Shown: one piece after another, positions 11,814 through 38,838 of the stretch
How the letters are laid out: the number at the start of each line of letters is the position of its first letter
How positions within the stretch are numbered: the stretch's first letter is position 1
Assembly: GCF_006546655.1 (NCBI RefSeq)
Contig: NZ_VIAQ01000012.1
Span: 248,001-312,000, forward strand
Direction: 5' to 3'
Length of the DNA stretch: 64,000 nucleotides
Origin: Methanolobus vulcani
GTDB lineage: Archaea > Halobacteriota > Methanosarcinia > Methanosarcinales > Methanosarcinaceae
Program-made: the position numbers and the translations under genes
The notes under the pieces: generated by a model
What the model was told of the DNA's origin: nothing
Database searches by the model: none
The model's input: only the letters and a program-made list of their open reading frames with translations

Positions 11814-13169
11814 ATGACAACAGGAAAGTTCTACAATCCGGAAATAGAAACAATGGAACGATCTGAACTTGATTCCTTAATTGATGAAAGGATCAGATAT
11901 ACTGTTAATTACGCTGCTGAAAATTCATTATTCTATAAGAAATGGTTCACTGAACATAAAATAAAACCATCTGACATCAGGTCACATGAAGACCTCCTGG
12001 AACTTCCCATAATATCAGGAAAAACTATTCGTGAAAATCAGCCACCTGTCACTGAAGACTTTGGGTTTAAAACTGTGGACTGGAAGGACGTATTCACGAT
12101 ACATGAAACAAGTGGTACCAGCGGTACACCAAAAGCGTTCTTTTTAACATGGGATGACTGGGAAAGATATGCAGAAAAATATGCCAGATGCTTTGTCTCA
12201 CAGGGATTCAGAGAGCATGACCGTGTTGTTGTTTGTGCTTCATATGGAATGAATGTAGGTGCAAATACAATGACACTGGCAGCCAGAAACCTTGGCATGA
12301 CAATGATCCCTGAAGGTAAGTGTACATTTCCTGTCAGGGTCATGGAATCCTACAAACCGACTTCCATTGTTGCCAGTACATTCAAGCTTTTGCGCCTTGC
12401 AAAAAGGATGAAAGAAAACGGCATGAAGCCGGAAGAATCCAGCATTGAAAGACTTATCATCGGCGGAGAAAGCTTTGCAGAGGAAACCAGAAAATATGTT
12501 GCAGAAATCTGGAACTGTAATGTCTATAACAATTATGGAAGTACAGAGGGAACTATGTGCGGAGAATGCAGCGATGTCAGCGGCCTCCACGTACCTGAAG
12601 ATCTGGTTCACCTGGATGTTTACGACCCCAGCATGGACAAATTCGTAAAGGACGGCGAATGCGGCAGACTTGTTCTTACCACATTGCTGCCTGTTGGAGC
12701 AAAAAGCGGGAACGTACTTCTCAATTATGACACCGAAGATACAACTGTTGTTCTTGACAGAGGAGAATGTGCCTGTGGAAGAACACACATGAAAATTATG
12801 ACTCCTCAAAGAGAAGCTGAAACTTTCTGGACAGCAGGAACACCTTTTAACCGGGTAGACATTGAAAAAGGTGTTTTCCAGAGAGAGAATATGGAATATC
12901 TCACCGGAGAATATGAAGCATTCCTTTACGGCGGAGATGATGAAGGTGAAACAACCCTCAGAGTAAGCATGGAATGCAATGATTCGGAAAGATGTAACAA
13001 AGAGCTAATCAAAGAGAATTTCCTCAGGTCATTCTTTGCCTACAAAAAGAACCTTGAAAATGCTTACATTGATAGTAGCCTGAATATTCTTTTCAACTAC
13101 GTAAAACCCGGAGAACTGGAATTCTACCGTATCAAGGGCAGACCAAAGCGTATTGTTGACAGAAGATGA
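11814..13169 (+). CDS. Coenzyme F390 synthetase-like adenylate-forming enzyme
   Basis: 451 residues of the phenylacetate-CoA ligase/F390 synthetase type. The phosphate loop is HETSGTSGTPK (about residues 97-107), followed by the adenylate motif YNNYGSTEG (about 238-246) and CACGRTH near residue 320. F390 synthetase adenylates or guanylates the 8-hydroxyl of F420 when cells meet oxygen. Paralogues of unknown substrate exist, so the exact reaction is not certain. AGGAG precedes the ATG. Confidence 0.75.
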   Translation: MTTGKFYNPEIETMERSELDSLIDERIRYTVNYAAENSLFYKKWFTEHKIKPSDIRSHEDLLELPIISGKTIRENQPPVTEDFGFKTVDWKDVFTIHETSGTSGTPKAFFLTWDDWERYAEKYARCFVSQGFREHDRVVVCASYGMNVGANTMTLAARNLGMTMIPEGKCTFPVRVMESYKPTSIVASTFKLLRLAKRMKENGMKPEESSIERLIIGGESFAEETRKYVAEIWNCNVYNNYGSTEGTMCGECSDVSGLHVPEDLVHLDVYDPSMDKFVKDGECGRLVLTTLLPVGAKSGNVLLNYDTEDTTVVLDRGECACGRTHMKIMTPQREAETFWTAGTPFNRVDIEKGVFQRENMEYLTGEYEAFLYGGDDEGETTLRVSMECNDSERCNKELIKENFLRSFFAYKKNLENAYIDSSLNILFNYVKPGELEFYRIKGRPKRIVDRR

Positions 13170-24020: not shown

Positions 24021-24764
24021 TTATCTTTTAGATTTAGGAAGTCTTAATAATAGATAAGCCATCAAAAACGTCAGCATGATCGAACAGAATACAGAATTGT
24101 AGAAACTAAAGAACTCTTTGAAAAATTCACTGAAATCATGCGACACTATAAATGAAATAAATAAAGCAATTAATAACAATAAAATAACTAACTTCAGGAT
24201 TCCGCCTGAATATGGGGAAAGTGCCTTGAAAACCGAATCAAACATTTCAGTAGAAATGGATGGAAGCTGAACACTCCAGTGATCATCTCCGAACATAGAA
24301 GAAGATAATGATTTGGATGATGATTTGGATGATTTAGAAGATTTTGATGTTGATTTTGGCTTTGGGGATGATGATGCAGGTTTGTAAAGAGATTCATCAA
24401 CATCAACAGTGAAACTGGCTTCATTTGGTCCGGGATGACCAAGATGAAGGTTAAAACCCTGCCTTTTGGAACCGTAACCTACAGTAATATATACCTGTCC
24501 TTTTGTGTAAAGCCTGCCATCATATGGAATTCGTGCTATAAGAGGTATGTATTCCTCGTGCTTAACGTAAGGATTGTCTTCAAGAATTGTGATATTTTCC
24601 CTAAGAGCATCGCTTACAGAAAGATTGACATGTGTGGGAGCACCATAGTTTATAAGCACAACCTCAAAACTGCGTTCCTCACCGGGAGATAAGGGTAACT
24701 CAACAGTATCCGTGTCGAATTCAATAGAATTTACTCCAAGTCTGTTGATATGAACCTGCTGCAA
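24021..24764 (-). CDS. Membrane-anchored protein with N-terminal beta domain, unknown
   Basis: 247 residues starting at a TTG that lies eight bases after GGTGAGG. Residues 1-125 form a beta-rich domain ([29 protein letters not shown] resembles CARDB/FIXG-like Ig folds). A Ser/Lys/Pro-rich linker of about 30 residues follows, then two hydrophobic segments near the C-terminus (about 192-212 and 222-242). Probably displayed on one side of the membrane; function unknown. It is just upstream of pyrG on the same strand. Confidence 0.6.
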
Positions 24765-26046: not shown

Positions 26047-26369
26047 TCAATGATTTTTTAATACTGATTTTAATTAGCAAATTTATAGAGACCTCCATAT
26101 TTGCAGAATAATATATAATGAGAAATATTATATACTTGCCACCATATACATTAATTGCATAATTTGCACAGGCGATGTTTTTTAGCCCGTATAGATATGG
26201 AATTGTAAGTGTCAATTGTCTCTTTAAATAGGAATTGTTCAAAGAACAATAAATTAATATAATATATTATACTCTATATAATATCGTAGAAATACAAACC
26301 ATATTCTACTCGAATATTGTGCAACTTTTGCACATATTATGTAATACCAAACATGGGAGATATGAACAA
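26047..26369. promoter_or_regulatory. Regulatory region of the chemotaxis operon with stacked inverted repeats
   Basis: These 323 bases hold no gene but four inverted repeats and one palindrome: TATATAAT/ATTATATA (26112-26134), ATTGTTC-AAA-GAACAAT (26234-26250), the palindrome TATAATATATTATA (26258-26271), GTAGAA/TTCTAC (26286-26309) and TGTGCAA-CTT-TTGCACA (26318-26334). The palindrome can act as the TATA element, which would leave the last two repeats in the leader of cheY as operators or RNA hairpins. Confidence 0.5.
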
Positions 26370-26726
26370 ATGGTAAAAGTAATGATTGTGGATGATGCTG
26401 CCTTTATGCGCATGGTCATCAAAGACATATTAACAAAAAATGGTCATGAAGTAGTTGCCGAATGTGTTGACGGGCTTGATGCTGTAAATAAATATCCGGA
26501 GGTAAAGCCTGAGCTTGTATTCATGGATATTGTCATGCCAAACATGGAAGGAATCGATGCACTCAAAAAGATAATGGAAATGGACCCGGCTGCAAAAATA
26601 GTCATGTGTTCATCTATTGGACAACAGTCAGTTGTCACTGATGCACTAAAATCCGGTGCACAGGACTTTATAGTCAAGCCTTTTGATGCTACAAAAGTTC
26701 TCGAAGTAATTGGAAAAGTAATGTAA
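26370..26726 (+). CDS. cheY: CheY chemotaxis response regulator
   Basis: 118 residues of a single REC domain: VDDAAFMR, phosphoacceptor D53 in VFMDIVMPNMEG, switch Ser in MCSSIG, and KPFDA. In archaea phospho-CheY acts on the archaellum through CheF and related adaptors; none of these is in the window. GGAGA is nine bases before the ATG. First gene of the che operon; cheB follows after one base. Confidence 0.93.
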   Translation: MVKVMIVDDAAFMRMVIKDILTKNGHEVVAECVDGLDAVNKYPEVKPELVFMDIVMPNMEGIDALKKIMEMDPAAKIVMCSSIGQQSVVTDALKSGAQDFIVKPFDATKVLEVIGKVM

Positions 26727-26727
26727 T

Positions 26728-27831
26728 ATGACTATCAATGCACTTGTGGTCGATGACTCCGCACTCATGCGAAAGGTCATCTCGGACATCCTGAAAGAAG
26801 ACCCGGAAATAAATGTAATAGCTACTGGCAGGAACGGCCTTGAAGCTGTTGAAAAGGTCGAACGCTTCAGGCCGGATGTGGTGACCCTGGATATTGAGAT
26901 GCCTGCTCTTGACGGATTGCACGCTCTCGGATACATCATGAGCGAATGCCCAACTCCGGTAGTCATGTTAACGGCGGTCGACTCGAGGTCTGCGGAAAGT
27001 ACACTAAATGCATTCGAATACGGTGCAGTAGACTTTATACAAAAACCTTCAGGAAACATAAGTGTAAACATTGCGGATATTGCTGAAGAGATCCGCAAAA
27101 AGGTAAAGATGGCTTCCAAAGTGGATCTGAAGAAACTCGGATTCATGGAAGAACACGTGAAAAAATCACGGGAGAACGAAGGGAAACCCTTGCCAGCTAA
27201 ACCAAAGAAAACAATTCCAAAAAGCATTCACCATGCAAACAGTAAGATCATTGCCATCGCATCCTCAACAGGTGGTCCTCGTGCTCTTGAACAGGTTGTT
27301 CCAAAATTACCAGGCGACCTGAAAGTGCCTGTAGTAATTGTCCAGCACATGCCTGCAGGATTTACAGCATCACTGGCACAAAGACTGGACGGACAGTCTG
27401 AACTGACAGTCACCGAAGCTAAAGAAGGAGATGTACTCCATCCGGGACATGCCTATCTTGCACCGGGAAATTACCATATGGAAATTACATCTGTTGAAAA
27501 AGGTGGAGTTCACCATGAAGTTGTAAAACTCAACCAGAATCCACGTGAGCAAGGAGTAAGACCCTGTGCCAATATTCTCTTCAAATCACTTGTGCCTATC
27601 TATGGACCTAACATAGTAACAGCAGTCCTGACAGGAATGGGAGCTGATGGTGCTGATGGTGTGGAAGAGATAAAGAAAGCAGGTGGAAAAGCAATCGCCG
27701 AGGATGAAAGATCATGTGTGGTATATGGTATGCCTAAAGTAGTGGTCCAGAGAGGACTTGCTGACAGTATCGTACCTCTTGAGAAGATATCTTCGGAAAT
27801 TATACGAATACTGAACTCAACCGGTGATTGA
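26728..27831 (+). CDS. cheB: CheB, receptor methylesterase/deamidase
   Basis: 367 residues. The REC domain has D55 in VTLDIEMPALDG. A charged linker of about 40 residues leads to the methylesterase domain with IAIASSTGGPRAL (Ser), VIVQHMPAGFT (His) and LTGMGADGADGV (Asp). It removes methyl groups from receptor glutamates and so resets the signal, opposing CheR in this operon. Confidence 0.96.
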   Translation: MTINALVVDDSALMRKVISDILKEDPEINVIATGRNGLEAVEKVERFRPDVVTLDIEMPALDGLHALGYIMSECPTPVVMLTAVDSRSAESTLNAFEYGAVDFIQKPSGNISVNIADIAEEIRKKVKMASKVDLKKLGFMEEHVKKSRENEGKPLPAKPKKTIPKSIHHANSKIIAIASSTGGPRALEQVVPKLPGDLKVPVVIVQHMPAGFTASLAQRLDGQSELTVTEAKEGDVLHPGHAYLAPGNYHMEITSVEKGGVHHEVVKLNQNPREQGVRPCANILFKSLVPIYGPNIVTAVLTGMGADGADGVEEIKKAGGKAIAEDERSCVVYGMPKVVVQRGLADSIVPLEKISSEIIRILNSTGD

Positions 27832-27882
27832 AATGTGTTTGGAAAATGAGAAGATCATTATAATCTCAGGGTTGGTGTGACC

Positions 27883-29940
27883 ATGGATATGTCAGAATAC
27901 AAAGAAATATTTAGAGCAGAATCAGAAGAACATCTGCAACAACTTAATGATTCGTTACTGGGGCTTGAACAAAACCCCAATGATCTGGAATACATCAATA
28001 CCATGTTCCGTTCAGCGCATACCCTAAAGGGAATGTCCGCTACAATGGGTTTTAACACCATTTCAGAACTGACTCATGAAATGGAAAACCTGATGGACAT
28101 GGTTAGAAAATCACAGGTTGAAGTAAGCAACGGACTCATAGACATTCTTTTTGAATGCCTGGATACACTGGAAGCTCTTGTTGAAGCTGTTGATAGTGGT
28201 GAAGAAGTGGACATTGCACATCTTCAGGCAACACTTACACAGGCTATGGAAGGAAACATGCCAGTGGAACATATTAAGAATTCTGTTGCTACAAGTATTG
28301 ATGTCATTCAAAATGAGATTGCCAAGGATATTCCGGATGAAGGAACAAAAACACAGGCAGAACTTGACACTGTTATCGACAACATTGAATTGTCTGATAA
28401 CGAAAAACAGGCAATGCAGGAAGCTGTTAATGATGGTAACCGTGTGGTTTCACTGAAAGTAATTCTTGATGAATCATGCGTTCTGAAATCTGCAAGGTCA
28501 ACTCTGGTACTTATCAACGTATCAAAGATGGGAGACATAATAAAGTGCACTCCTACGGAAGCTGAGCTTGAGGATGAAAAATTTGATCTGGACTTCACAG
28601 TAATATTTGCAACAAAATCAGCTGATGATGACATCGTTGGAGCTATCAGGAAGATTTCAGAGATTAAGGAAGTAGTTCCTACAACCATCGCTGAGAATTC
28701 AGGTGTTGAAGAAAAACAGCAGGAAACAAAGGCAGTAGATACAGAAGAAAAGAAAAGTGCTTCTGCTGTAAAGAGATCCGATGCTGTCAAGAGCATACAG
28801 AGTGTAAGAGTTAATATCGAACGCCTTGACAACCTGATGAATCTGGTGGGAGAACTTATTATCAACAAGATCAGGTTGAACCAGCTTGCATCTGATCTTA
28901 ATGCAAAAGACCTAGATGAATCACTTGCAAACCTTGACAGGCTTACAAATGAGATCCAGACCGAAGTAATGGAATCAAGAATGGTTCCAATTGACCAGAT
29001 TTTCAGCAGGTTCCCCAGAATGGTAAGGGATCTTGCAAAATCTGAAGGAAAACAGATCAATCTTATTATTGAAGGTAAAGAGATCGAACTGGACAGGACC
29101 GTGTTGGATGAGATTGGCGATCCGCTGGTTCACCTTCTGAGAAATGCTGTAGACCACGGAATAGAATCTGAGGAAGAGCGTAAGCAACTGGGTAAACCTG
29201 TTGCAGGTCTTGTAAGACTGGCAGCTTCACGTCAGAGGAACAGTGTACTCATTGAGGTTGAAGATGATGGTAAAGGAATGGAACCCGGACACCTTCGGGA
29301 TGTTGCCGTCAAAAAAGGCCTTCTTACAAGAGAGGAAGTTGATAAATTATCTGACAATGATGCACTGAATCTTATATTCATGCCAGGTTTCAGTGGAGCT
29401 AAAGTGGTTACCGATATTTCAGGCAGAGGTGTCGGAATGGATGCTGTCAAGACAAAGATCGAAGCTCTGGGAGGAAGTGTTAAGATAAGTTCCGTCCCGG
29501 GGCAGGGCAGCATAATGAAACTGCAGCTACCGCTAACAGTTGCAATCATTCAGTCACTCATGGTTACCGTATCCGATGAGACCTATGCCATACCTCTTGG
29601 AAATGTGATCCGTGATGTCGGAATAAAAGCCAGTGACATAAAAACCATCGAGGGAAAAGAAGTAATCATGCTCAGGGGAGAAGTTCTTCCATTACTGAGA
29701 TTGCATGATATTCTTGAATCATCCACCGAAAAAGAAGATAAACAGAATCTTATCGTTGTGGTTGTCGAAAAGATGGGAAGTAACATAGGACTGGTAGTTG
29801 ATGACCTTCTTGGACAGCAGGAAGTAATCATCAAGACACTTGACAATAAACTTTTAAAGAATATGAAAGGGTTTGCAGGTGCAACCATCCTGGGAGATGG
29901 AAGTGTTTCGCTAATCCTTGACATTGCTACATTAATCTAA
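27883..29940 (+). CDS. cheA: CheA histidine kinase
   Basis: 685 residues from the ATG five bases after GGTG. The HPt domain has H46 in AHTLKGMSATMGF. A second, shorter CheY/CheB-binding-like domain lies at about 185-275, then the dimerisation helices, the ATPase domain (N box LLRNAVDHG, G1 EDDGKGM, G2 SGRGVGMDAV), and a C-terminal CheW-like domain from about 545. It receives receptor signals and phosphorylates CheY and CheB. No receptor gene is in the window. Confidence 0.97.
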   Translation: MDMSEYKEIFRAESEEHLQQLNDSLLGLEQNPNDLEYINTMFRSAHTLKGMSATMGFNTISELTHEMENLMDMVRKSQVEVSNGLIDILFECLDTLEALVEAVDSGEEVDIAHLQATLTQAMEGNMPVEHIKNSVATSIDVIQNEIAKDIPDEGTKTQAELDTVIDNIELSDNEKQAMQEAVNDGNRVVSLKVILDESCVLKSARSTLVLINVSKMGDIIKCTPTEAELEDEKFDLDFTVIFATKSADDDIVGAIRKISEIKEVVPTTIAENSGVEEKQQETKAVDTEEKKSASAVKRSDAVKSIQSVRVNIERLDNLMNLVGELIINKIRLNQLASDLNAKDLDESLANLDRLTNEIQTEVMESRMVPIDQIFSRFPRMVRDLAKSEGKQINLIIEGKEIELDRTVLDEIGDPLVHLLRNAVDHGIESEEERKQLGKPVAGLVRLAASRQRNSVLIEVEDDGKGMEPGHLRDVAVKKGLLTREEVDKLSDNDALNLIFMPGFSGAKVVTDISGRGVGMDAVKTKIEALGGSVKISSVPGQGSIMKLQLPLTVAIIQSLMVTVSDETYAIPLGNVIRDVGIKASDIKTIEGKEVIMLRGEVLPLLRLHDILESSTEKEDKQNLIVVVVEKMGSNIGLVVDDLLGQQEVIIKTLDNKLLKNMKGFAGATILGDGSVSLILDIATLI

Positions 29941-29955
29941 AGATGAGGGAATAAT

Positions 29956-30573
29956 ATGACAGAATTGGACGAAATGGCAAAAGGAGCATTTCAAGAGGCC
30001 GGAAACATTGGAATGGGACATCTGGCCACTTCACTTTCAAAAATGGTGAACAGGGATGTGAAAATCGATATCCCTGTAGTAGAAATGCTTACTCTGGACG
30101 ATATAATCGCAAAAAGCAATGAAGAAGGCAAGAACAAGAGCGTGGTTGGAATACATCTTCATATAACTGGAGATGTTTCCGGAGGAACCCTCATACTGCT
30201 TCCTAAGTTCTCAGCACTATCTTTTTCCGATTTGTTGATGAAAAAATCAATCGGAACTACAAATAAGATAGAAGAACCGCAGATCAAGAAACTCCGTGAA
30301 ATGGGAGTGAACCTCTGCAGTGCTTATATGCGTGTTGTAAATGAATTCCTCGGAATAAACCTCAACATCGGAGACCCAAGCATGGAAGTTAACATGGAGG
30401 GAGTCGGAGATTTTATCAGACAGGAAATAGGACATGTTGCAGATGAGTTCATTGTTGTGAAAGGTGAATGTCTGATACCTTCTACAAACTCAAAAAATGA
30501 ATTCAACATGATGTTTGAACCCGGTGCCACGGACATAATAATGGCAGCTATCATGAAGAAAATGATGGGATAA
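29956..30573 (+). CDS. cheC: CheC-family phosphatase, paralogue 1
   Basis: 205 residues. The first CheC active-site helix is present (FQEAGNIGMGHLATSLSKM, with E-x2-N). The second one (KKLREMGVNLCSAYMRVVNEF) lacks the Asn and the preceding Ser/Asp, so only one site looks able to dephosphorylate CheY-P. It could act as a binding partner for CheD. GAGGG precedes the ATG, right behind cheA. Confidence 0.85.
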   Translation: MTELDEMAKGAFQEAGNIGMGHLATSLSKMVNRDVKIDIPVVEMLTLDDIIAKSNEEGKNKSVVGIHLHITGDVSGGTLILLPKFSALSFSDLLMKKSIGTTNKIEEPQIKKLREMGVNLCSAYMRVVNEFLGINLNIGDPSMEVNMEGVGDFIRQEIGHVADEFIVVKGECLIPSTNSKNEFNMMFEPGATDIIMAAIMKKMMG

Positions 30574-30574
30574 G

Positions 30575-32695
30575 ATGAATAGTGCCCATTTTGCCCTGGA
30601 TATAGGAACAAGAACTGTTGTGGGACTTGTTACAGAAGATGGGAACCTCAACATAAAAGCTGCGTGTGTTCATGAGCATAACGAGCGTAGCATGCAGGAT
30701 GGGCAGATTCATGATATTGAGAAGGTTGCAAAGGTTGTAGACGAGGTCAAAAAAGACCTGGAAAAACAAACCGGATGCAAAGTATCTAAAGTTGCTGTGG
30801 CCGTTGCAGGAAGAGCACTTAAAACCTCCAAAGTAAAAGTTTCAGTTGAGATGCCTTACAGAGAAATAAGTCGTGAAGACATCTCTGAACTGGAATTTGA
30901 AGCAGTTGCACGCGCCGGAAATCAACTTGGAAATGACAAAGGATTCAATTGTGTTGGGTACTCCGTAGTTCACTACGAACTTGATGGTGAGGGCATTTCC
31001 AATATAGTAGGACAGAAAGGAAGTTCTGTCACAGTGGAAGTACTTGCTACTTTTCTGCCTGAAGCTGTTATAAACAGCATGTTTGCCGTACTTGACAGAT
31101 GCGGACTTGAAGCTTCAAGTATGACACTTGAACCTATTGCAGCCCTTAATGTTGCAATACCTGGTGACATGCGTAAATTGAATATCGCACTTGTAGATAT
31201 CGGAGCAGGAACTTCCGATATTGCAATTACGGATAAAGGAACCGTAATTGGCTACGGAATGGTCCCTGAAGCAGGAGACGAAATTACTGATTTTATATGT
31301 GATCATTATCTTGTGGACTTTAAAAAGGGAGAAAATATCAAAAGATCCCTTACAAGCAAGGAAAGAATAGAACTTGAAGACATCTTTGGCGTTACCACTG
31401 AAATCCCGGTAAGCCAGGTGATCGCTGACATCGAGCATGAGGTCGATAAGCTGGCAATGCACATTGCCGAAGAGATTCTTAAAATTAATGAGAAAGTTCC
31501 ACGTGCAGTGGCTCTTGTAGGAGGAGGGTCACAAATTGCAGGGCTAAAGGAGCATCTTTCAAAACACCTTGACATACCCGTACAGAGAATTGGTTCACGC
31601 CTTCCTAAACAGATAGAAGACCTGTCTGATAATACCGGAATTGTCACCGGTGCGGATATGATCACACCACTTGGCATAGCTCGTATGGCAATACTTGAGG
31701 AAGGAATAGAATTCATTGACCTGAACGTAAATGGTCTGGAAATTCATCTGATGGATATCAATGGACTTTCTGTTATGGATGCGCTTGTAGCTGCAAAAGT
31801 CAAACGCCTCTATCCACGTCCTGGAATGGCACTAAGCCTTACTATTAATTCTAAATTCAGAACAATTGAAGGAGAAATGGGTGAACATGCCACCATATTA
31901 CTCAATGGTAAAAAGGCAAGTCTTGGTGAGCCCGTACACAAAGGTTCTGTAATTGATTTCACTGCACCTGTGGATGGAAAAGATGCTCACCTGAAAGTTA
32001 AAGACCTTATCAGGATGCAGGAGCTGAAAACTGTATACAGGATCAATGTCAATCACATGGAAAAAGAAATCGAACCTTTTGTTAACATTAATGGAAAAAG
32101 AGTATCCTTTGAAGATACAATACCTGACCGGGCTGATATTAAGATACGTGCACCCAACCTGGAAGATGTGCTTGATATGGAGTTCAGACAGGATGAGCTT
32201 GAAAAGATGTCGGTAAGGATCAACAATACTGTCCGGTATTTCGACAGGATAAATTACTCATTCAAACTGAACGGCGATCCGGTTGACAGAAAAGAACTTT
32301 CACAACATCCGCTCAGTGATAACGATATAATACTTATTGAAAAATCAGAGTTTGACTACAGGATCGAGAATATTCTGGGCAAACCTGAAGAAGGCAAAAA
32401 GATCAGCGTACTTCTCAATGGCAATGAGATCGTATTTGACGGATCAATGCCGCAAATTACCCTTAATGGGAAAAGGGCATCTCTTTCTGACAGAATCGAT
32501 GATGGAGACAACATCAAATTGAAAATGGGAGAAGATGCAGAACCTATACTGTCAGACCTGTTTGAATTTATGGATATTAAAAAGGAGGAACTTGTGGGCA
32601 AGAGAATGAGACTTCTTGTAAACAATGTTCCTGCCAGATTTACAACCCCTTTGAGGGATGGAAACAATGTGACAATAGAATTTGCAGAGGTATAA
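30575..32695 (+). CDS. FtsA/PilM-like actin-fold ATPase with beta-grasp-like repeats
   Basis: 706 residues. Residues 1-350 are an actin-fold ATPase of the FtsA/PilM/Hsp70 superfamily: phosphate-1 FALDIGTRTVVGLV, phosphate-2 IALVDIGAGTSDIAI, adenosine motif AVALVGGGSQIAGL, and TPLGIARMA. The rest is not FtsA-like. About five units of 50-70 residues each carry an LNGKxxSL-type strand and a DGDxIxL-type turn (ILLNGKKASLGE, VNINGKRVSFED, FKLNGDPVDRK, ITLNGKRASLSD, LLVNNVPARFTT), resembling ThiS/MoaD-like beta-grasp modules. It has no membrane helix. Lying between cheC1 and cheR, it is probably a chemotaxis-linked cytoskeletal or assembly factor. Confidence 0.8.
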   Translation: MNSAHFALDIGTRTVVGLVTEDGNLNIKAACVHEHNERSMQDGQIHDIEKVAKVVDEVKKDLEKQTGCKVSKVAVAVAGRALKTSKVKVSVEMPYREISREDISELEFEAVARAGNQLGNDKGFNCVGYSVVHYELDGEGISNIVGQKGSSVTVEVLATFLPEAVINSMFAVLDRCGLEASSMTLEPIAALNVAIPGDMRKLNIALVDIGAGTSDIAITDKGTVIGYGMVPEAGDEITDFICDHYLVDFKKGENIKRSLTSKERIELEDIFGVTTEIPVSQVIADIEHEVDKLAMHIAEEILKINEKVPRAVALVGGGSQIAGLKEHLSKHLDIPVQRIGSRLPKQIEDLSDNTGIVTGADMITPLGIARMAILEEGIEFIDLNVNGLEIHLMDINGLSVMDALVAAKVKRLYPRPGMALSLTINSKFRTIEGEMGEHATILLNGKKASLGEPVHKGSVIDFTAPVDGKDAHLKVKDLIRMQELKTVYRINVNHMEKEIEPFVNINGKRVSFEDTIPDRADIKIRAPNLEDVLDMEFRQDELEKMSVRINNTVRYFDRINYSFKLNGDPVDRKELSQHPLSDNDIILIEKSEFDYRIENILGKPEEGKKISVLLNGNEIVFDGSMPQITLNGKRASLSDRIDDGDNIKLKMGEDAEPILSDLFEFMDIKKEELVGKRMRLLVNNVPARFTTPLRDGNNVTIEFAEV

Positions 32696-32697
32696 AA

Positions 32698-33522
32698 ATG
32701 CTTAAAACTGTTGGGAAAAACGAAGAAGAATATTACGCAATACTGAAGAACCTGATCCAGAAAAACCTCGGATTTAATTCAAACCAGTACAAAGATTCTC
32801 ACTTCAAGAGAAGAATCGATGTCAGGTTGCGTGCAACAAATGCTAAAACCTACAAAGAGTATGTGGAATTGCTCCAAAATGATAGGAATGAGTATCCTGT
32901 ACTCATGGAAACACTGACAGTAAACGTTACTAATTTCTTCAGAAATCCGGAAGTGTATGATATTGTAGAGAAAGAAGTACTTCCAGCATTAATTAAAGCA
33001 AGGAGCAATGGACTGCGTTCAATAAGAATATGGAGTGCAGGGTGTTCCATCGGTGTAGAAGCATATTCCATAGCAATGTTATTAAATCATTTACTTGGCG
33101 ATGATTTTAGTAAATACAGCATAAAAATAACCGGGACTGACATCGACAAAGATAGTCTCATTAAGGCTCAGAACGGCACATATACAGATATAGAAATGAA
33201 GGATGTAAGACCTGCTTTTCTTAAGAAGTACTTCACCAGGGACGGAAACACGTACACAATATCAGATGAGCTCAAGAAGATAACACAGTTCAAAAAACAG
33301 GATCTGATATCCGGCCCTAAAATGAGCGGTTTTGATGCAGTATTCTGCAGAAATGTTACTATTTATTTCCAGAAAGAGTTGCAAGAACAGCTATACCTGG
33401 ACTTTTACAATGCACTTGGGAAAGATGGTTTCTTTGTAATGGGAAAAACAGAGACATTAATAGGACCATCAAAAGACAAATTCAAACCTTACAATTCCAA
33501 GGAGAGAATCTACCAGAAATGA
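32698..33522 (+). CDS. cheR: CheR, chemoreceptor methyltransferase
   Basis: 274 residues: an N-terminal helical domain (residues 1-80, FKRRIDVRLRA) and a SAM-binding domain with IWSAGCSIGVEAYSIAM, ITGTDIDKDSL and the CheR signature FCRNVTIYF. It methylates receptor glutamates. GAGGT lies five bases before the ATG, two bases after the actin-fold gene. Confidence 0.95.
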   Translation: MLKTVGKNEEEYYAILKNLIQKNLGFNSNQYKDSHFKRRIDVRLRATNAKTYKEYVELLQNDRNEYPVLMETLTVNVTNFFRNPEVYDIVEKEVLPALIKARSNGLRSIRIWSAGCSIGVEAYSIAMLLNHLLGDDFSKYSIKITGTDIDKDSLIKAQNGTYTDIEMKDVRPAFLKKYFTRDGNTYTISDELKKITQFKKQDLISGPKMSGFDAVFCRNVTIYFQKELQEQLYLDFYNALGKDGFFVMGKTETLIGPSKDKFKPYNSKERIYQK

Positions 33523-33575
33523 CATAGAGCATATCAGGAAGTGACATTTAAAAAACGTAATCATGGAGTTTGCAA

Positions 33576-34190
33576 ATGAAACATAAGATATCAAGCCTGA
33601 GCGAGTTACAGGTAAGCGCCCTGAGGGAAATTGTGAACATAGGCGTTGGAAACGCTGTAACTTCGCTTTCAAAAATGATAGAAACCGGAGTAAAGATAGA
33701 AGTTCCTGACTTTAAGGTTGAGCTTATCGAAAATGTACCTGAGGTCCTTGGAGGAGCTGCTAACGTTGTTTCAGGTGTGATAATGCAAGTCGCAGGGGAC
33801 GTTGATGGATACATAATAATGATGCTTCCGGAAGATGCCGCCCAGACTATTTGCCAGATCATCACAAATGAGGATAATGTAGATATTCTGACGCCTTTGA
33901 ATCAGTCCATTCTTGAAGAAGTGGGACATATACTTGCAGGCTCTTATGTAAGCTCCTTATCAGATTTCCTTGGCCTGAATATCAAAATCTCTACACCAAT
34001 GCAGACTTTTGATATGCTGGGCGCTATTATAGACCAGATATTGATCGAGATGAGCCAGAAAGTTGAACATGCACTTCTTTTTGACACAATGTTCATATTA
34101 CAGGGCAACAGGACCGATGGTTTCTTCCTGACAATGTTTGATCCTGATTCCATGGATAAGATACTTGATCGTATTGATAAAATGATTTGA
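33576..34190 (+). CDS. cheC: CheC-family phosphatase, paralogue 2
   Basis: 204 residues from the ATG at 33576 (GGAG seven bases upstream; a TTG two codons earlier is possible). Site 1 is intact (SALREIVNIGVGNAVTSLSKM, S-x3-E-x2-N). Site 2 reads SILEEVGHILAGSYVSSL, with His in place of the Asn. It belongs to the CheC/CheX/FliY phosphatase group. Confidence 0.87.
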   Translation: MKHKISSLSELQVSALREIVNIGVGNAVTSLSKMIETGVKIEVPDFKVELIENVPEVLGGAANVVSGVIMQVAGDVDGYIIMMLPEDAAQTICQIITNEDNVDILTPLNQSILEEVGHILAGSYVSSLSDFLGLNIKISTPMQTFDMLGAIIDQILIEMSQKVEHALLFDTMFILQGNRTDGFFLTMFDPDSMDKILDRIDKMI

Positions 34191-34204
34191 AAGGAGTGAA
34201 ATGA

Positions 34205-34816
34205 ATGAACATAGTACTTGATAAGTTCTATTATGATGCATTAAATGAAGTGGGAAATATCGGGATGGGAAATGCAACAACTGCACTCTCACAACTTGTG
34301 GGTAAGTCCATACAGGTTAGCAGTTCATCCCTTTCATTACTTAAAGATAAAGATATCTCCGAGAACCTTAATTCGGAAAAGGTTGGAGCTATAGTGAGAG
34401 TAATGGGAGATATGAATGGCGGATTCATATTGGTCCTTGGGAAGAACCATTCTGAAGTCCTGACAGATATGCTTCTTAAAGACAGTCCCGCAGAAGACAA
34501 TTACATGAAGGCATCTGCATTCATTGAAGTTGCGAATATACTTGCAGGCAGTTATTACAATGCGCTTTCCAAGTTTCTGAACCTTTCTATCATACCCTCA
34601 ATTCCAGTCATATCCGAAGGAACTACAGATGAGATATTTGAAAAATCTAAAAAGCACATGAGTGGGAAGATCGATCACATTTTCGGCCTGAAAACTCTGT
34701 TTGAAATCAAGGGAGAAGATGAGTACCATAGCCTGAGCGGTGATATGTACATGCTCCTGGATACAGCTTCATTGCAGTCAATCATTGACAGGATAGAAGA
34801 AATGCGTACGAGATAA
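34205..34816 (+). CDS. cheC: CheC-family phosphatase, paralogue 3 (both sites intact)
   Basis: 203 residues. Site 1 is DALNEVGNIGMGNATTALSQL, and site 2 is SAFIEVANILAGSYYNALSKF; both keep the D/S-x3-E-x2-N pattern, so this is the best candidate for the active CheY-P phosphatase of the cluster. GGAGTG precedes the ATG. CheD follows after two bases, which fits the known CheC-CheD pair. Confidence 0.9.
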   Translation: MNIVLDKFYYDALNEVGNIGMGNATTALSQLVGKSIQVSSSSLSLLKDKDISENLNSEKVGAIVRVMGDMNGGFILVLGKNHSEVLTDMLLKDSPAEDNYMKASAFIEVANILAGSYYNALSKFLNLSIIPSIPVISEGTTDEIFEKSKKHMSGKIDHIFGLKTLFEIKGEDEYHSLSGDMYMLLDTASLQSIIDRIEEMRTR

Positions 34817-34818
34817 AC

Positions 34819-35292
34819 ATGATAATAGTGGGAATGGCTGACAGTGCTGTTGCAAAGAAACCCGCAAAACTCACCACTCTAGGATTGGGATCTTGTGTGG
34901 GAATTTCACTGTATGACAAAAGCACAGGTGTCGGCGGTATGGTGCATATTATGCTTCCAAGCATAGAAAATGCAAGAGCAAAAGACAATATCGCCAAGTT
35001 TGCAGATACAGGAATCCCTGCACTTCTGGATGAGATGACAGAGAAGGGTGCGTATAAACACCGGACAACTGCTAAGATCGCAGGTGGTGCTAGCATGTTC
35101 TCATTTAATTCAAATGCCCAGCTCAATATTGGAGAAAGAAACATAGCAGCTACAAAAGAGGCATTGAAACAACTAAAAATACCCATTGTTGCAGAGGATA
35201 CCGGACAGAACTATGGACGTACCATTGTGCTTGACACTGAAAACGGAGAACTTACTGTCAAAAGCGCACTTAAAGGTATAAAAGTATATTAA
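34819..35292 (+). CDS. cheD: CheD, receptor glutamine deamidase
   Basis: 157 residues. The catalytic Cys is in TTLGLGSCVGISLYD and the His in VGGMVHIMLPS, as in the CheD family; KIAGGASMF is also typical. CheD deamidates receptor glutamines and is controlled by binding to CheC. Confidence 0.95.
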   Translation: MIIVGMADSAVAKKPAKLTTLGLGSCVGISLYDKSTGVGGMVHIMLPSIENARAKDNIAKFADTGIPALLDEMTEKGAYKHRTTAKIAGGASMFSFNSNAQLNIGERNIAATKEALKQLKIPIVAEDTGQNYGRTIVLDTENGELTVKSALKGIKVY

Positions 35293-35342
35293 TATATACA
35301 ACATAATAATATATCACATGGATAATAATAGGTGACAGCAGG

Positions 35343-36374
35343 ATGTTAACTCCGGAAATTACTATAACACACATAATATTCATATCCATATCATTAGCGT
35401 GTGGATTGGCAGCCATATACTTCTGGGTAAAGGTTTATTTTGAAACGAAAAAAGGATCTATTGCCTGGTTACTTCTTGCACTTACAGCTATATTCCTTAT
35501 CACATCCTCAATATTCCCCTCAATTGCCATCGGTTCTCAGGATGAAGACATTACTGAACTTGTCTTCCTGTTCCTTGGTTTCTGGAGTGCTGTCTATACC
35601 AGTATATTTGCTTCTGCAGGATTTTTGATGCTTCAGGCATTTACGACAATTCCAAGGGAAAAGCTAGGAGATTTCCTGATAGAAGGAATGATATTCACAA
35701 AACCTGTTGAATCCGAAGATGACATGGAAGAACTGCCTGAAGTAGAGCAAATGTCAAAACTTCTCAGCAGGTCAACACTTATCGAATACACACCTAAGAC
35801 CCGATACGAAGATTCTGTAATAGAAATCTGCCTTCGCCTTTACGGCGAAATGGTAAACACTGTTCTTGTATCAACACAGCCACGTACTGAAATGTACAAA
35901 GAGAAGATTGGAGACCTGATGGATATAGGTGCAATGAAATTTATCGAAATCTCATCCACAACTAAAACTGTCACTAATGAAGAGGGAATTGTAAAATTAC
36001 CTGCTGATGAAATTGAGAAATTCTTTGAGCTTACAAGCAAGCTTCCTGAAGGCTGTGCCGTTGTCTTTGAACCAATAAGTCAGTTGATCCTGACAGATGG
36101 GGAACAAAGGACATACGAGTTTATGTCTGAAATGGTTGAACGCTTCTCTGCCAGCAAATTGCTTCTGGTCGGCATGATAAATAAAGATGCACATGACTTA
36201 CAGATAATTTCCAGATTTGAAGGTCTTTTCCTGAACCTTGCAGATGAAAAGGATGCAAAGATTCGTGTTGTAAAGGGCGGGAAAGAAGAATACATCCGGT
36301 TCTATGTAGGAGAGAAATTCTTCATGGAGCAGGATGTTGAAGTTATACTTGAAGAAAAAAAGGTTGAGTTCTAA
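35343..36374 (+). CDS. Membrane protein with KaiC/DUF835-like cytoplasmic domain, in the che operon
   Basis: 343 residues. Three hydrophobic segments (about 8-28, 40-60, 74-100) are followed by a soluble domain of about 230 residues. Its late part (PEGCAVVFEPISQLILTDGEQRTYEFMSEMVERFS) resembles the DUF835/KaiC-like Walker B region without a Walker A. GGTGA lies seven bases before the ATG, and its stop overlaps cheC4 by one base. It may be a membrane sensor or anchor for the che complex. I do not know a named family with certainty. Confidence 0.6.
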   Translation: MLTPEITITHIIFISISLACGLAAIYFWVKVYFETKKGSIAWLLLALTAIFLITSSIFPSIAIGSQDEDITELVFLFLGFWSAVYTSIFASAGFLMLQAFTTIPREKLGDFLIEGMIFTKPVESEDDMEELPEVEQMSKLLSRSTLIEYTPKTRYEDSVIEICLRLYGEMVNTVLVSTQPRTEMYKEKIGDLMDIGAMKFIEISSTTKTVTNEEGIVKLPADEIEKFFELTSKLPEGCAVVFEPISQLILTDGEQRTYEFMSEMVERFSASKLLLVGMINKDAHDLQIISRFEGLFLNLADEKDAKIRVVKGGKEEYIRFYVGEKFFMEQDVEVILEEKKVEF

Positions 36375-37000
36375 TGACCAGGCAACTTGACAATTTTCTG
36401 ATTGATGCATTCAAGGAGATAGGCAGTATAGGTATGGGAAATGCTACTACTGCCCTGTCCCAGCTTATTGAGAAAAGAGTGCAGTTAAACCTTTCAGATG
36501 CACGTTTGTTTGAACCGTCTGCTATTATCGACATAATACCGGACTCCATTACAATGACCGGTATAATGATCCCGATCCACGGGGATATGAATGGTCTTGT
36601 AATGCTGCTGTTTGAGTTTGGCAATGCTGTTTATCTGAGCAACCTGCTGTTACAAAGTATCGAGCATGAGGATGACCCCAGTATTTATGAGTCTGCTCTT
36701 CTTGAAACAGGAAACATTATTGCCGGATCATATCTGAATTCACTTTCATCTTTCCTTAATCTTAAGATCATGCATTCTGTGCCGGACATAAGTATCGGCA
36801 ATATTGAGGAGATCCTGAAAAAGAGCCTCAATATGATGCATAAAGAACCGGAAGGAATACTGAACATGGAAACAATGTTTATGGTTTACACATCTGAAAA
36901 AGACGTCGGAGCCGGCACTATCTATGGAGATATGTTCCTTCTGCTGGAAGAGGAATCGCTTGACAGGATGCAAAATTCCATTCAGGAAATGCTGAAATGA
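36374..37000 (+). CDS. cheC: CheC-family phosphatase, paralogue 4
   Basis: 208 residues. Site 1 reads DAFKEIGSIGMGNATTALSQL, where Ser replaces the catalytic Asn. Site 2 is intact (SALLETGNIIAGSYLNSLSSF). It starts within the stop codon of the membrane protein gene, so the two are translationally coupled. Confidence 0.87.
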   Translation: MTRQLDNFLIDAFKEIGSIGMGNATTALSQLIEKRVQLNLSDARLFEPSAIIDIIPDSITMTGIMIPIHGDMNGLVMLLFEFGNAVYLSNLLLQSIEHEDDPSIYESALLETGNIIAGSYLNSLSSFLNLKIMHSVPDISIGNIEEILKKSLNMMHKEPEGILNMETMFMVYTSEKDVGAGTIYGDMFLLLEEESLDRMQNSIQEMLK

Positions 37001-37037
37001 CTTTACAATTATGAATCAGGTTTTACGGTTGAACTAT

Positions 37038-37481
37038 ATGAAAAATATCTGGACACAGCATCTGGAACGATCAAATAATGATGATCGAAACGGGGAAAGC
37101 ACGTTTTCACAGATGCTACACTCTCTTGTCAGAATTGAGAATGGTAGCTATCTACGGGCAACCAGCACAGATACTCCGGGAATTGGAAATCGAACTGATG
37201 AAACTGCTCTTTACAAGGCAGAAACAGAGGTCCAAATCTGGGAGGCTGATAGTCATAAAGGGTACGAACTTGGAATAGATTCCCTGAAAAAAGATAGTGT
37301 AAAACTAATCATGGCAGAGGATGGACAACTTATCCTCAGATACAACGTTGCCGGTGAAACACCATTTGAAATGGCTGTGAAATCTGAAGACGATGCTCTG
37401 AATATTATAGCGGAAGATAATGCAACAACTGAACAGCTTTACCCGGCTAACCCGGAGCTTAAATGGATTAAAATAACATAA
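37038..37481 (+). CDS. Unknown protein at the end of the che operon
   Basis: 147 residues from the ATG at 37038 (GGTTGA upstream); an ATG at 37011 lacks a ribosome site. The N-terminal third is polar and probably disordered. The rest looks beta-rich (EVQIWEADSHKGYELGIDSLKK, QLILRYNVAGETPFEMAVKSEDDA). It has no cysteines and no membrane segment. Not recognised. By position it belongs to the chemotaxis transcript, ending just before a strong new promoter. Confidence 0.5.
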   Translation: MKNIWTQHLERSNNDDRNGESTFSQMLHSLVRIENGSYLRATSTDTPGIGNRTDETALYKAETEVQIWEADSHKGYELGIDSLKKDSVKLIMAEDGQLILRYNVAGETPFEMAVKSEDDALNIIAEDNATTEQLYPANPELKWIKIT

Positions 37482-37595: not shown

Positions 37596-38222
37596 ATGAT
37601 GGACATTGCAATTTACTCGCTTGTTGATGACATGGTTAGCAAAGCAGGAACAGAAGGTGTCGTAGAATACTGGCTTCGTGTAGGTGAGAGCTATGCAGAA
37701 AGGATGGGCAAAGAAGCATATGTGGGATGGCCTGCCTTTAATGTGGCAATGAAGGATGGAAGGACATCTCTCACTGTAGAAGGTGATGTTAATGTCCAGA
37801 CCGACCTCGCTATCACAGATAAGGATGGAGATGTCATCGGTTATGTCTATGCTTTAAAAGTGTGCCCAATGGCACCTACCATGGGAAGATACATTTCAAG
37901 AATCGGCCCAATACCTGATTCTGACACCGACGTGGCTGACAGCTATAATAACCGTGTAAGAGATTCAGCTGTTTCTAATTACTGCATTACTCACCAGAAA
38001 TTCAGGGAAGTTGCAGCTAACAATATTACTGTTGCAAAACAGGCCCTTGAATGTCTGCATCTTGCAAACAAAGGAATGACCGGTGAAGTGAAAATGGTAC
38101 AGGAAAACCTTGCCAGGATCAATGTTGACGAGAGACACATTAAAAGTATTCTCAGAAATGCATCCTGCGTGTTCGCTCTTATTGTTAAAGGCAAGAGTGC
38201 AGGCGAGGAGATTATAGATTAA
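37596..38222 (+). CDS. Unknown Cys/His-motif protein A (paralogue of the next gene)
   Basis: 208 residues, soluble. Shared with the next protein are ALKVCPMAP..RYISRIG, DSYN, SNYCITHQKFREVA and a late NASCVFALIV. The three conserved Cys and one His suggest a metal, haem or cluster site or a thiol centre; this is inference. The layout slightly recalls ATC-hydrolase/V4R-like sensor folds, but I cannot name the family. GGAG stands upstream of two successive ATG codons. Confidence 0.65.
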   Translation: MMDIAIYSLVDDMVSKAGTEGVVEYWLRVGESYAERMGKEAYVGWPAFNVAMKDGRTSLTVEGDVNVQTDLAITDKDGDVIGYVYALKVCPMAPTMGRYISRIGPIPDSDTDVADSYNNRVRDSAVSNYCITHQKFREVAANNITVAKQALECLHLANKGMTGEVKMVQENLARINVDERHIKSILRNASCVFALIVKGKSAGEEIID

Positions 38223-38232
38223 AGGTGATCAT

Positions 38233-38838
38233 ATGGCTGAAAATATAGAATCCAATCCTTTTGTTGATGTTTCAGTGTTCCTGTTCTTTGAGGATATTTC
38301 CGATAAGCAGGGTGTTGAAGGTTTTACCAATTACATGGTTGGCCAGGCAGAATCACTGGCAAAATCCGTACCTGAGGAAGAATACCAGACCTGGGATGAC
38401 TTTGCAAATGCTGTAATTAACGGTGAATCCGTACTTTCATCATTTGAGCATATCGGACAGATAAGTAAATATGGTTTTGTCACAAAGGTGTGCCCATTCT
38501 CCAAAGCCATCAGGGAATACATTAAGAGAATCGGTAACTTCAACCCGGTTCATATGGAAGCAACAGACCATTATAATCACACAATACAGCCTTCTGCCGC
38601 ACACAGTGCATGCATGATGCACCAGACTTACCGCAAGGAAGTTGCAAAGAGAATTAAGATTGGCGGCAAACCACTTCAGTATGCTCAGATCGCAGCAAAG
38701 GCATATACAGGTAAGATAGCACTCCCACCAGAATCATGGAAGAAAGTCCTGCTTGAGAAAGCTGGAATTTCCGAAACCCAGGGATTCATGGAAATGAGGG
38801 AGAACAGTTGCCTGTATCTTCTTTATGTTGAAGAATAA
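38233..38838 (+). CDS. Unknown Cys/His-motif protein B (paralogue of the previous gene)
   Basis: 201 residues. It aligns with the previous protein over its whole length: VFLFFEDISDKQGVEGFTNYMVGQAESLA at the start, TKVCPFSKAIREYIKRIG in the middle, DHYNH, HSACMMHQTYRKEVAKRI, and ENSCLYLLYV at the end. The Cys and His positions are kept although general identity is low. GGTGA lies four bases before the ATG. The two genes are 10 bases apart and probably form a heteromer. Confidence 0.65.
   Translation: MAENIESNPFVDVSVFLFFEDISDKQGVEGFTNYMVGQAESLAKSVPEEEYQTWDDFANAVINGESVLSSFEHIGQISKYGFVTKVCPFSKAIREYIKRIGNFNPVHMEATDHYNHTIQPSAAHSACMMHQTYRKEVAKRIKIGGKPLQYAQIAAKAYTGKIALPPESWKKVLLEKAGISETQGFMEMRENSCLYLLYVEE

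Follow-up and report, generated by a model that had tools for sequence, protein, structure and literature searches.

A predicted actin-like ATPase with a tandem beta-grasp tail, encoded in che operons of Methanolobus and Omnitrophota, as a candidate chemotaxis component

The window analysed here, a stretch of 64,000 nucleotides from Methanolobus vulcani, carries a che operon in the order cheY-cheB-cheA-cheC1-FtsAL-cheR-cheC2-cheC3-cheD-(343 aa)-cheC4-(156 aa), in which the named che members were recognized by Pfam and FtsAL is the name that we use for the 706-aa protein encoded at window positions 30575-32695 (Table 1). The initial annotation had placed this gene between cheC1 and cheR at spacings of one or two bases and had concluded that it is produced together with the chemotaxis proteins; we found the same gaps, and the layout supports co-transcription. 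Since the genome has a single CheA, about 10 MCP genes and archaellins, the chemotaxis system is presumably functional. Four CheC paralogues (29956-30573, 33570-34190, 34205-34816 and 36374-37000) accompany CheD in this one archaeal operon, and in CheC1, the paralogue adjoining FtsAL, Pfam recognizes only the N-terminal CheC motif. Neither of the two unnamed genes has a Pfam match: the 343-aa gene (35343-36374) has a hydrophobic N-terminus and is retained at the corresponding position of the operon in several relatives, and the 156-aa gene (37011-37481), which is evolving fast (31-40% identity), stands at the operon end in several relatives. Directly after the operon lie two adjacent genes of ~200 codons (37596-38222 and 38233-38838) with conserved cysteines and no Pfam match, the products of which seem to be related to each other. 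Upstream of the operon, the minus strand (24021-24764) encodes a DUF7524 protein with hydrophobic segments at its C-terminus.

Table 1. Genes of the che operon and features of FtsAL, in window coordinates
Feature	Position	Strand	Basis and remarks
cheY, cheB, cheA	26319..29940	+	Upstream in the FtsAL operon; Pfam (Response_reg/CheY, CheB, CheA)
cheC1	29956..30573	+	Pfam CheC; stop 1 base 5' of FtsAL
FtsAL gene	30575..32695	+	706 aa; intact ORF and translation
FtsA/PilM-type actin ATPase domain, residues 1-373	30575..31693	+	Pfam, NCBIfam, Foldseek to FtsA and PilM
Phosphate-1 motif LDIGTRTV, residues 8-15	30596..30619	+	L8-T12 90-100% conserved in 42 diverse members
Region aligning with the FtsA 1C subdomain, ~residues 84-160		+	Within the actin domain of FtsAL
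Phosphate-2 motif LVDIGAGTSDI, residues 206-216	31190..31222	+	83-100% conserved in 42 diverse members
Adenosine motif LVGGGSQ, residues 314-320	31514..31534	+	VGGGS core; glycines 95-100% conserved
Beta-grasp unit 1, residues 376-472	31700..31990	+	hhalign, predicted strands; possibly 1.5 units
Beta-grasp unit 2, residues 473-527	31991..32155	+	hhalign 97-99% to units 1, 3 and 4; 95.8% to unit 5
Beta-grasp unit 3, residues 528-594	32156..32356	+	hhalign 99.0% to unit 4
Beta-grasp unit 4, residues 595-655	32357..32539	+	hhalign
Beta-grasp unit 5, residues 656-706	32540..32692	+	Pfam ThiS match
cheR	32698..33522	+	Pfam CheR and CheR_N; start 2 bases 3' of FtsAL
cheC2, cheC3, cheD, 343-aa gene, cheC4, 156-aa gene	33570..37481	+	Pfam for the named genes; order kept in relatives

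The N-terminal half of FtsAL had been read as an FtsA/PilM-type actin fold with phosphate motifs, and profile, structure and motif comparisons all bear this out. Pfam matches to PilM_2 (E 8e-12), FtsA (E 6e-10) and MreB_Mbl (E 1e-8) are above their cut-offs, and residues 7-353 match the NCBIfam FtsA model TIGR01174 at E 1.5e-34, with a score (119.7 bits) below the equivalog cut-off of 175.85; the score against the NCBIfam PilM model TIGR01175 (61.9 bits) is likewise below the subfamily cut-off of 133. Using an AlphaFold2 model of the full protein (mean pLDDT 82.5), we obtained FtsA 7q6f as the best Foldseek match (E 7e-29, TM 0.80 by target length), with PilM (5eou, E 5e-21), EutJ and MreB after it. 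The model aligns with FtsA chains over ~390 columns and is predicted to have the FtsA-like 1C-for-1B actin fold, with an approximate boundary for 1C. Across 42 diverse family members the phosphate-1 (LDIGTR), phosphate-2 (LVDIGAGTSDIA) and adenosine (VGGGS) motifs are near-invariant, and all three nucleotide motifs support the assignment of FtsAL to the actin/ASKHA superfamily. The initial annotation had also noted the lack of an FtsA membrane tail; none is seen in our model, because the predicted chain terminates in a beta strand (residues 698-705) with no C-terminal helix.

The C-terminal half of FtsAL is a tandem repeat of homologous beta-grasp units, in agreement with the about five ThiS/MoaD-like modules that had been proposed for it. 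All 10 pairs among the five units align by hhalign at probabilities of 95.8-99.0%, whereas 30 control pairs, each of an N-terminal segment and a C-terminal unit, did not exceed 23%. When this half was modelled alone (pLDDT 86.1), Foldseek matched it to linear polyubiquitin, bacterial multi-ubiquitin proteins, SAMP1, ThiS (rmsd 2.4) and TGS (rmsd 2.5), and Pfam places a ThiS domain at residues 659-701 (E 3.5e-5, above cut-off); of 12 members of the family, 8 have such a match. The repeats show only at the level of protein profiles, DNA-level repeats inside the gene being unremarkable. The translated protein of the window ends in IEFAEV and has no terminal Gly-Gly, which makes a role as a sulfur carrier or in conjugation unlikely. 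Conservation of the tail across phyla is weak (27-30% identity), and its partners may therefore differ between them.

Within the archaea the gene has a narrow distribution. Among 80 related genomes it was confined to Methanolobus and one other Methanosarcinaceae metagenome-assembled genome (G038), and among 100 sampled genomes of the archaeal phylum it occurred in Methanolobus only. A copy was detectable in 25 relatives of the Methanolobus group, the window itself not counted, and every one of them has the order cheA-cheC-FtsAL-cheR. Genomes free of FtsAL retain the operon with cheR directly after cheC1 (loci L184, L185, L190 and L197), and most Methanosarcinales with CheA outside Methanolobus have no FtsAL; in one genome (G012) CheA and FtsAL are both absent. 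Two Methanolobus genomes have kept the che operon and have lost or gutted the gene, which is why we regard FtsAL as conserved yet dispensable. In the first of these (G021, locus L197) FtsAL is absent, and in the second (G018, L198:6768-7418) it is cut to an in-frame remnant of 216 codons that has lost the ATPase core, with neither the phosphate-2 nor the adenosine motif left, while the rest of the che operon is intact, unless the remnant is an assembly artefact. The cheC1-cheR spacer of G021 (L197, ~12325-12399) ends in CAGAGGTATATAAATG, resembling the end of FtsAL and the start of cheR in the window; this is possibly a deletion scar, or merely a kept ribosome-binding site.

Full-length relatives with ~32-39% identity to the window protein were found in bacteria, by a peptide-pattern scan in Omnitrophota and Carboxydocella and by tblastn in Anoxybacillus and Acetoanaerobium. 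When 237 genomes of the Omnitrophota phylum were searched, high-scoring FtsAL matches were clearly separate from ordinary FtsA-type matches, and the genomes with FtsAL also carry a separate, shorter FtsA-like gene. Wherever the context of an Omnitrophota locus could be read (11 of 11), FtsAL lies inside a che cluster, adjoining cheA or cheC, a typical order being cheY-cheC-cheA-(cheC)-FtsAL-cheR-cheY-cheD-cheB-cheC. A cheC gene precedes FtsAL at several of these loci and cheR follows downstream at 8, while at two others (L120 and L121, of the cheB-cheA-cheC-FtsAL type) no cheR was seen downstream. Eight Omnitrophota che operons have a ComFB-family gene between FtsAL and cheR (L044:1630-1893, with PF10719 at E 1.5e-26; L041:12153-12407; and L114, L115, L116, L117, L118 and L119), and there is no ComFB gene at this place in Methanolobus.

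A tree of 50 proteins puts the Bacillota, Omnitrophota and archaeal sequences each on one side of a supported branch and joins the archaeal and Omnitrophota groups with support 100/99. Judged by these relationships, the family is mostly bacterial and not archaeal, the Methanolobus copies are sister to Omnitrophota proteins, and FtsAL is not an archaeal innovation. Wholesale transfer of a che operon from Omnitrophota to Methanolobus is not favoured, as the Methanolobus CheA groups with CheA of other Methanosarcinaceae; FtsAL therefore either entered an existing archaeal operon or belonged to an ancestral operon and was lost elsewhere. That both lineages place the gene after cheA/cheC, usually just before cheR, argues for a shared functional constraint.

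In Bacillota the picture at the level of gene neighbourhoods is different. We sampled 299 genomes (species) from the Bacillota phylum to which Carboxydocella belongs and found FtsAL in 167, almost always as one copy; one of the copies, from Anoxybacillus, is annotated as ‘pilus assembly protein PilM’. Most of these copies are away from core che genes. The commonest neighbour is an orphan cheR, seen at 7 of 33 loci and always on the same strand, although several of these loci are closely related and perhaps three are independent cases. At about five loci (L129 and related ones), flagellar basal-body rod-type and mreB/mbl-type genes lie 2-3 genes from FtsAL. A survey of homologue neighbourhoods had been set in advance by the initial annotation as one test that could refute its proposal, and the outcome is split: linkage to che genes holds in Methanolobus and Omnitrophota, and it fails in Bacillota, where the homologues are mostly elsewhere.

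At the level of whole genomes the association is strong. CheA occurs in 165 of the 167 Bacillota genomes with FtsAL and in 81 of the 132 without it (odds ratio 52, Fisher 6e-19), CheD in 165 of 167 compared to 68 of 132, and every one of the 167 has CheA or CheD; these tests take no account of common descent, and gaps in the assemblies may explain some absences. Even among genomes with CheA, CheD is found in 163 of 165 with FtsAL and in 66 of 81 without it (p 1.6e-6). Sporulation was rejected as the cause of this distribution, given that FtsAL has no link to Spo0A within the CheA-containing Bacillota genomes (p 0.6); the link to CheA persists in genomes both with and without Spo0A. Flagella are a weaker explanation than CheA: in genomes where the two markers disagree, FtsAL is present in 7 of 10 with CheA and no FliG compared to 2 of 11 with FliG and no CheA. 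Because FtsAL is absent from 81 Bacillota genomes with CheA and from most of the CheA-containing Methanosarcinales mentioned above, chemotaxis does not require it.

The location in che clusters of Omnitrophota and Methanolobus, together with the genome-wide dependence on CheA and CheD, outweighs the Bacillota copies that lie away from che genes. We therefore consider it very likely that FtsAL is linked to chemotaxis; the functional tie suggested by the initial annotation is strengthened and now extends to bacteria. In bacteria, relatives of FtsAL are nearly restricted to genomes with chemotaxis genes, so that FtsAL is probably an overlooked component of this system. Established by sequence comparison are the predicted fold, the intact nucleotide motifs, the repeats, the operon position in two distant lineages and the dependence on CheA and CheD.

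As to what FtsAL does, we lean, tentatively, towards an accessory role in chemotaxis, in which FtsAL is an actin-like scaffold, dependent on ATP, and organizes the chemosensory array or the CheC/CheD/CheR module through its beta-grasp tail. The FtsA/PilM-type domain would bind ATP and would probably self-assemble into short filaments, by analogy with FtsA, and the five beta-grasp modules would form a multivalent arm that binds chemosensory proteins, with a Che protein as the presumed partner. ATP binding and, presumably, hydrolysis would switch the assembly, and the resulting complex may serve as a scaffold for the array or determine its position, or do so for the CheC/CheD/CheR adaptation module located there. 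The data fit an association with CheR or CheD as well as with CheC. Rather more doubtful is the wider proposal of a widespread actin-like filament system for chemotaxis, shared by Bacillota, Omnitrophota and Methanolobus, that builds or positions arrays by means of a tandem ubiquitin-like tail.

Much of the gene-order evidence could also be read without any positioning, with FtsAL as a regulator of adaptation that binds CheR, CheD or CheC and exerts ATP-dependent control over receptor methylation or CheY-P removal. The prominence of cheR agrees with such a role, since it is the commonest Bacillota neighbour, lies immediately downstream in all 25 Methanolobus-group copies and is downstream in 8 Omnitrophota loci, as do the strong link to CheD within CheA-containing Bacillota and the cheC gene ahead of FtsAL in Methanolobus and several Omnitrophota. 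We nevertheless think it unlikely, as the two Omnitrophota loci L120 and L121 show no cheR downstream, and an actin fold that carries a long multivalent tail is seen more typically in assembly proteins than in simple regulators. Still less probable, in our judgement, is a PilM-like adaptor that joins the Che system to a motility machine, be it a type IV pilus, an archaellum or a flagellum. The similarity to PilM in sequence and fold, the archaellins and MCPs in the M. vulcani genome, and the flagellar rod-type gene close to some Bacillota copies would all suit an adaptor, but no PilN-like partner gene was noticed beside FtsAL in the loci examined, and no single motor is common to archaella, flagella and the genomes with CheA and no FliG. 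A motor-specific role is less likely for the same reason, the family occurring with each of these three. The identity of FtsAL as PilM itself was rejected, because the score is below the subfamily cut-off and there is no pilus context.

The resemblance to FtsA invites the reading of FtsAL as an FtsA paralogue that acts in cell division or cell shape and is only incidentally associated with che genes, and both the top-scoring full-domain family model (FtsA, E 1.5e-34) and the best structural match are indeed those of FtsA. We rejected it as the main reading, and now hold it to be improbable to a marked degree: the score is under the FtsA equivalog cut-off, there is no C-terminal membrane helix, Omnitrophota with FtsAL have their own shorter FtsA-like gene, and FtsAL is missing from most other Methanosarcinales, is dispensable in Methanolobus and tracks CheA and CheD. 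The Pfam ThiS matches in 8 of 12 members might instead suggest a metabolic sulfur-carrier or chaperone-like protein that is merely carried along with motile lineages. This we regard as the most far-fetched of the explanations, because the window protein lacks the C-terminal GG on which ThiS/MoaD/SAMP carriers depend, its five units all lie as internal repeats within a single chain, and the che-operon position in two distant lineages would be left unexplained.

Under the preferred reading of an accessory actin-like scaffold, or more broadly if FtsAL is any component of the array or of adaptation, textbook CheC/CheD-type chemotaxis misses a part, and the way in which Bacillota and archaea without ParC-type systems place their arrays could be put to a direct test. 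This unstudied protein appears to be present in over half of the Bacillota genomes sampled, nested almost perfectly within the genomes that have chemotaxis genes, and an archaeal signalling operon holds a bacterial-type actin-like gene at nearly the position that it has in a distant bacterial phylum. FtsAL does not feature in any chemotaxis model known to us. Our search of the open-access literature found nothing relevant on an FtsA-like or other actin-like chemotaxis protein in archaea, Omnitrophota or Clostridia, nor did the literature searched contain an actin-class counterpart of the MinD-type array-positioning ATPases; a role of FtsAL in positioning arrays would, if true, make it the first such counterpart of ParA/MinD-type systems.

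Among known systems, FtsA (TIGR01174, PF14450) shares with FtsAL the actin fold, which spans the whole FtsA chain, and the phosphate-1, phosphate-2 and adenosine motifs, but it has a C-terminal membrane helix, where FtsAL instead adds five beta-grasp units and sits in che operons. PilM (PF11104) belongs to the same superfamily and has the same overall domain, with a Pfam match above cut-off and a structural match, yet it is encoded with pilN/pilO/pilQ-type genes; the neighbours of FtsAL are che genes in archaea and Omnitrophota and mixed genes in Bacillota, with no context of the pilN/pilO/pilQ type among them, and FtsAL has the extra beta-grasp tail. Its C-terminal units have the fold of ThiS/MoaD/SAMP, ubiquitin-like and tandem multi-ubiquitin proteins, from which FtsAL differs in having five units fused to an actin domain and no terminal GG. 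The CheC/CheD/CheR adaptation module supplies its operon partners and co-occurs with it genome-wide, although FtsAL is homologous to no Che protein. For the positioning of arrays, bacteria have ParC, an ATPase of the ParA/MinD type. In the archaeon Haloferax volcanii, chemosensory arrays are placed by the MinD-type ATPases MinD4 and MinD2 (PMC11588486). FtsAL resembles MinD4, MinD2 and ParC only in its proposed role of array placing: these are Walker ATPases of an unrelated fold, whereas FtsAL has an actin fold and is encoded within the che operon.
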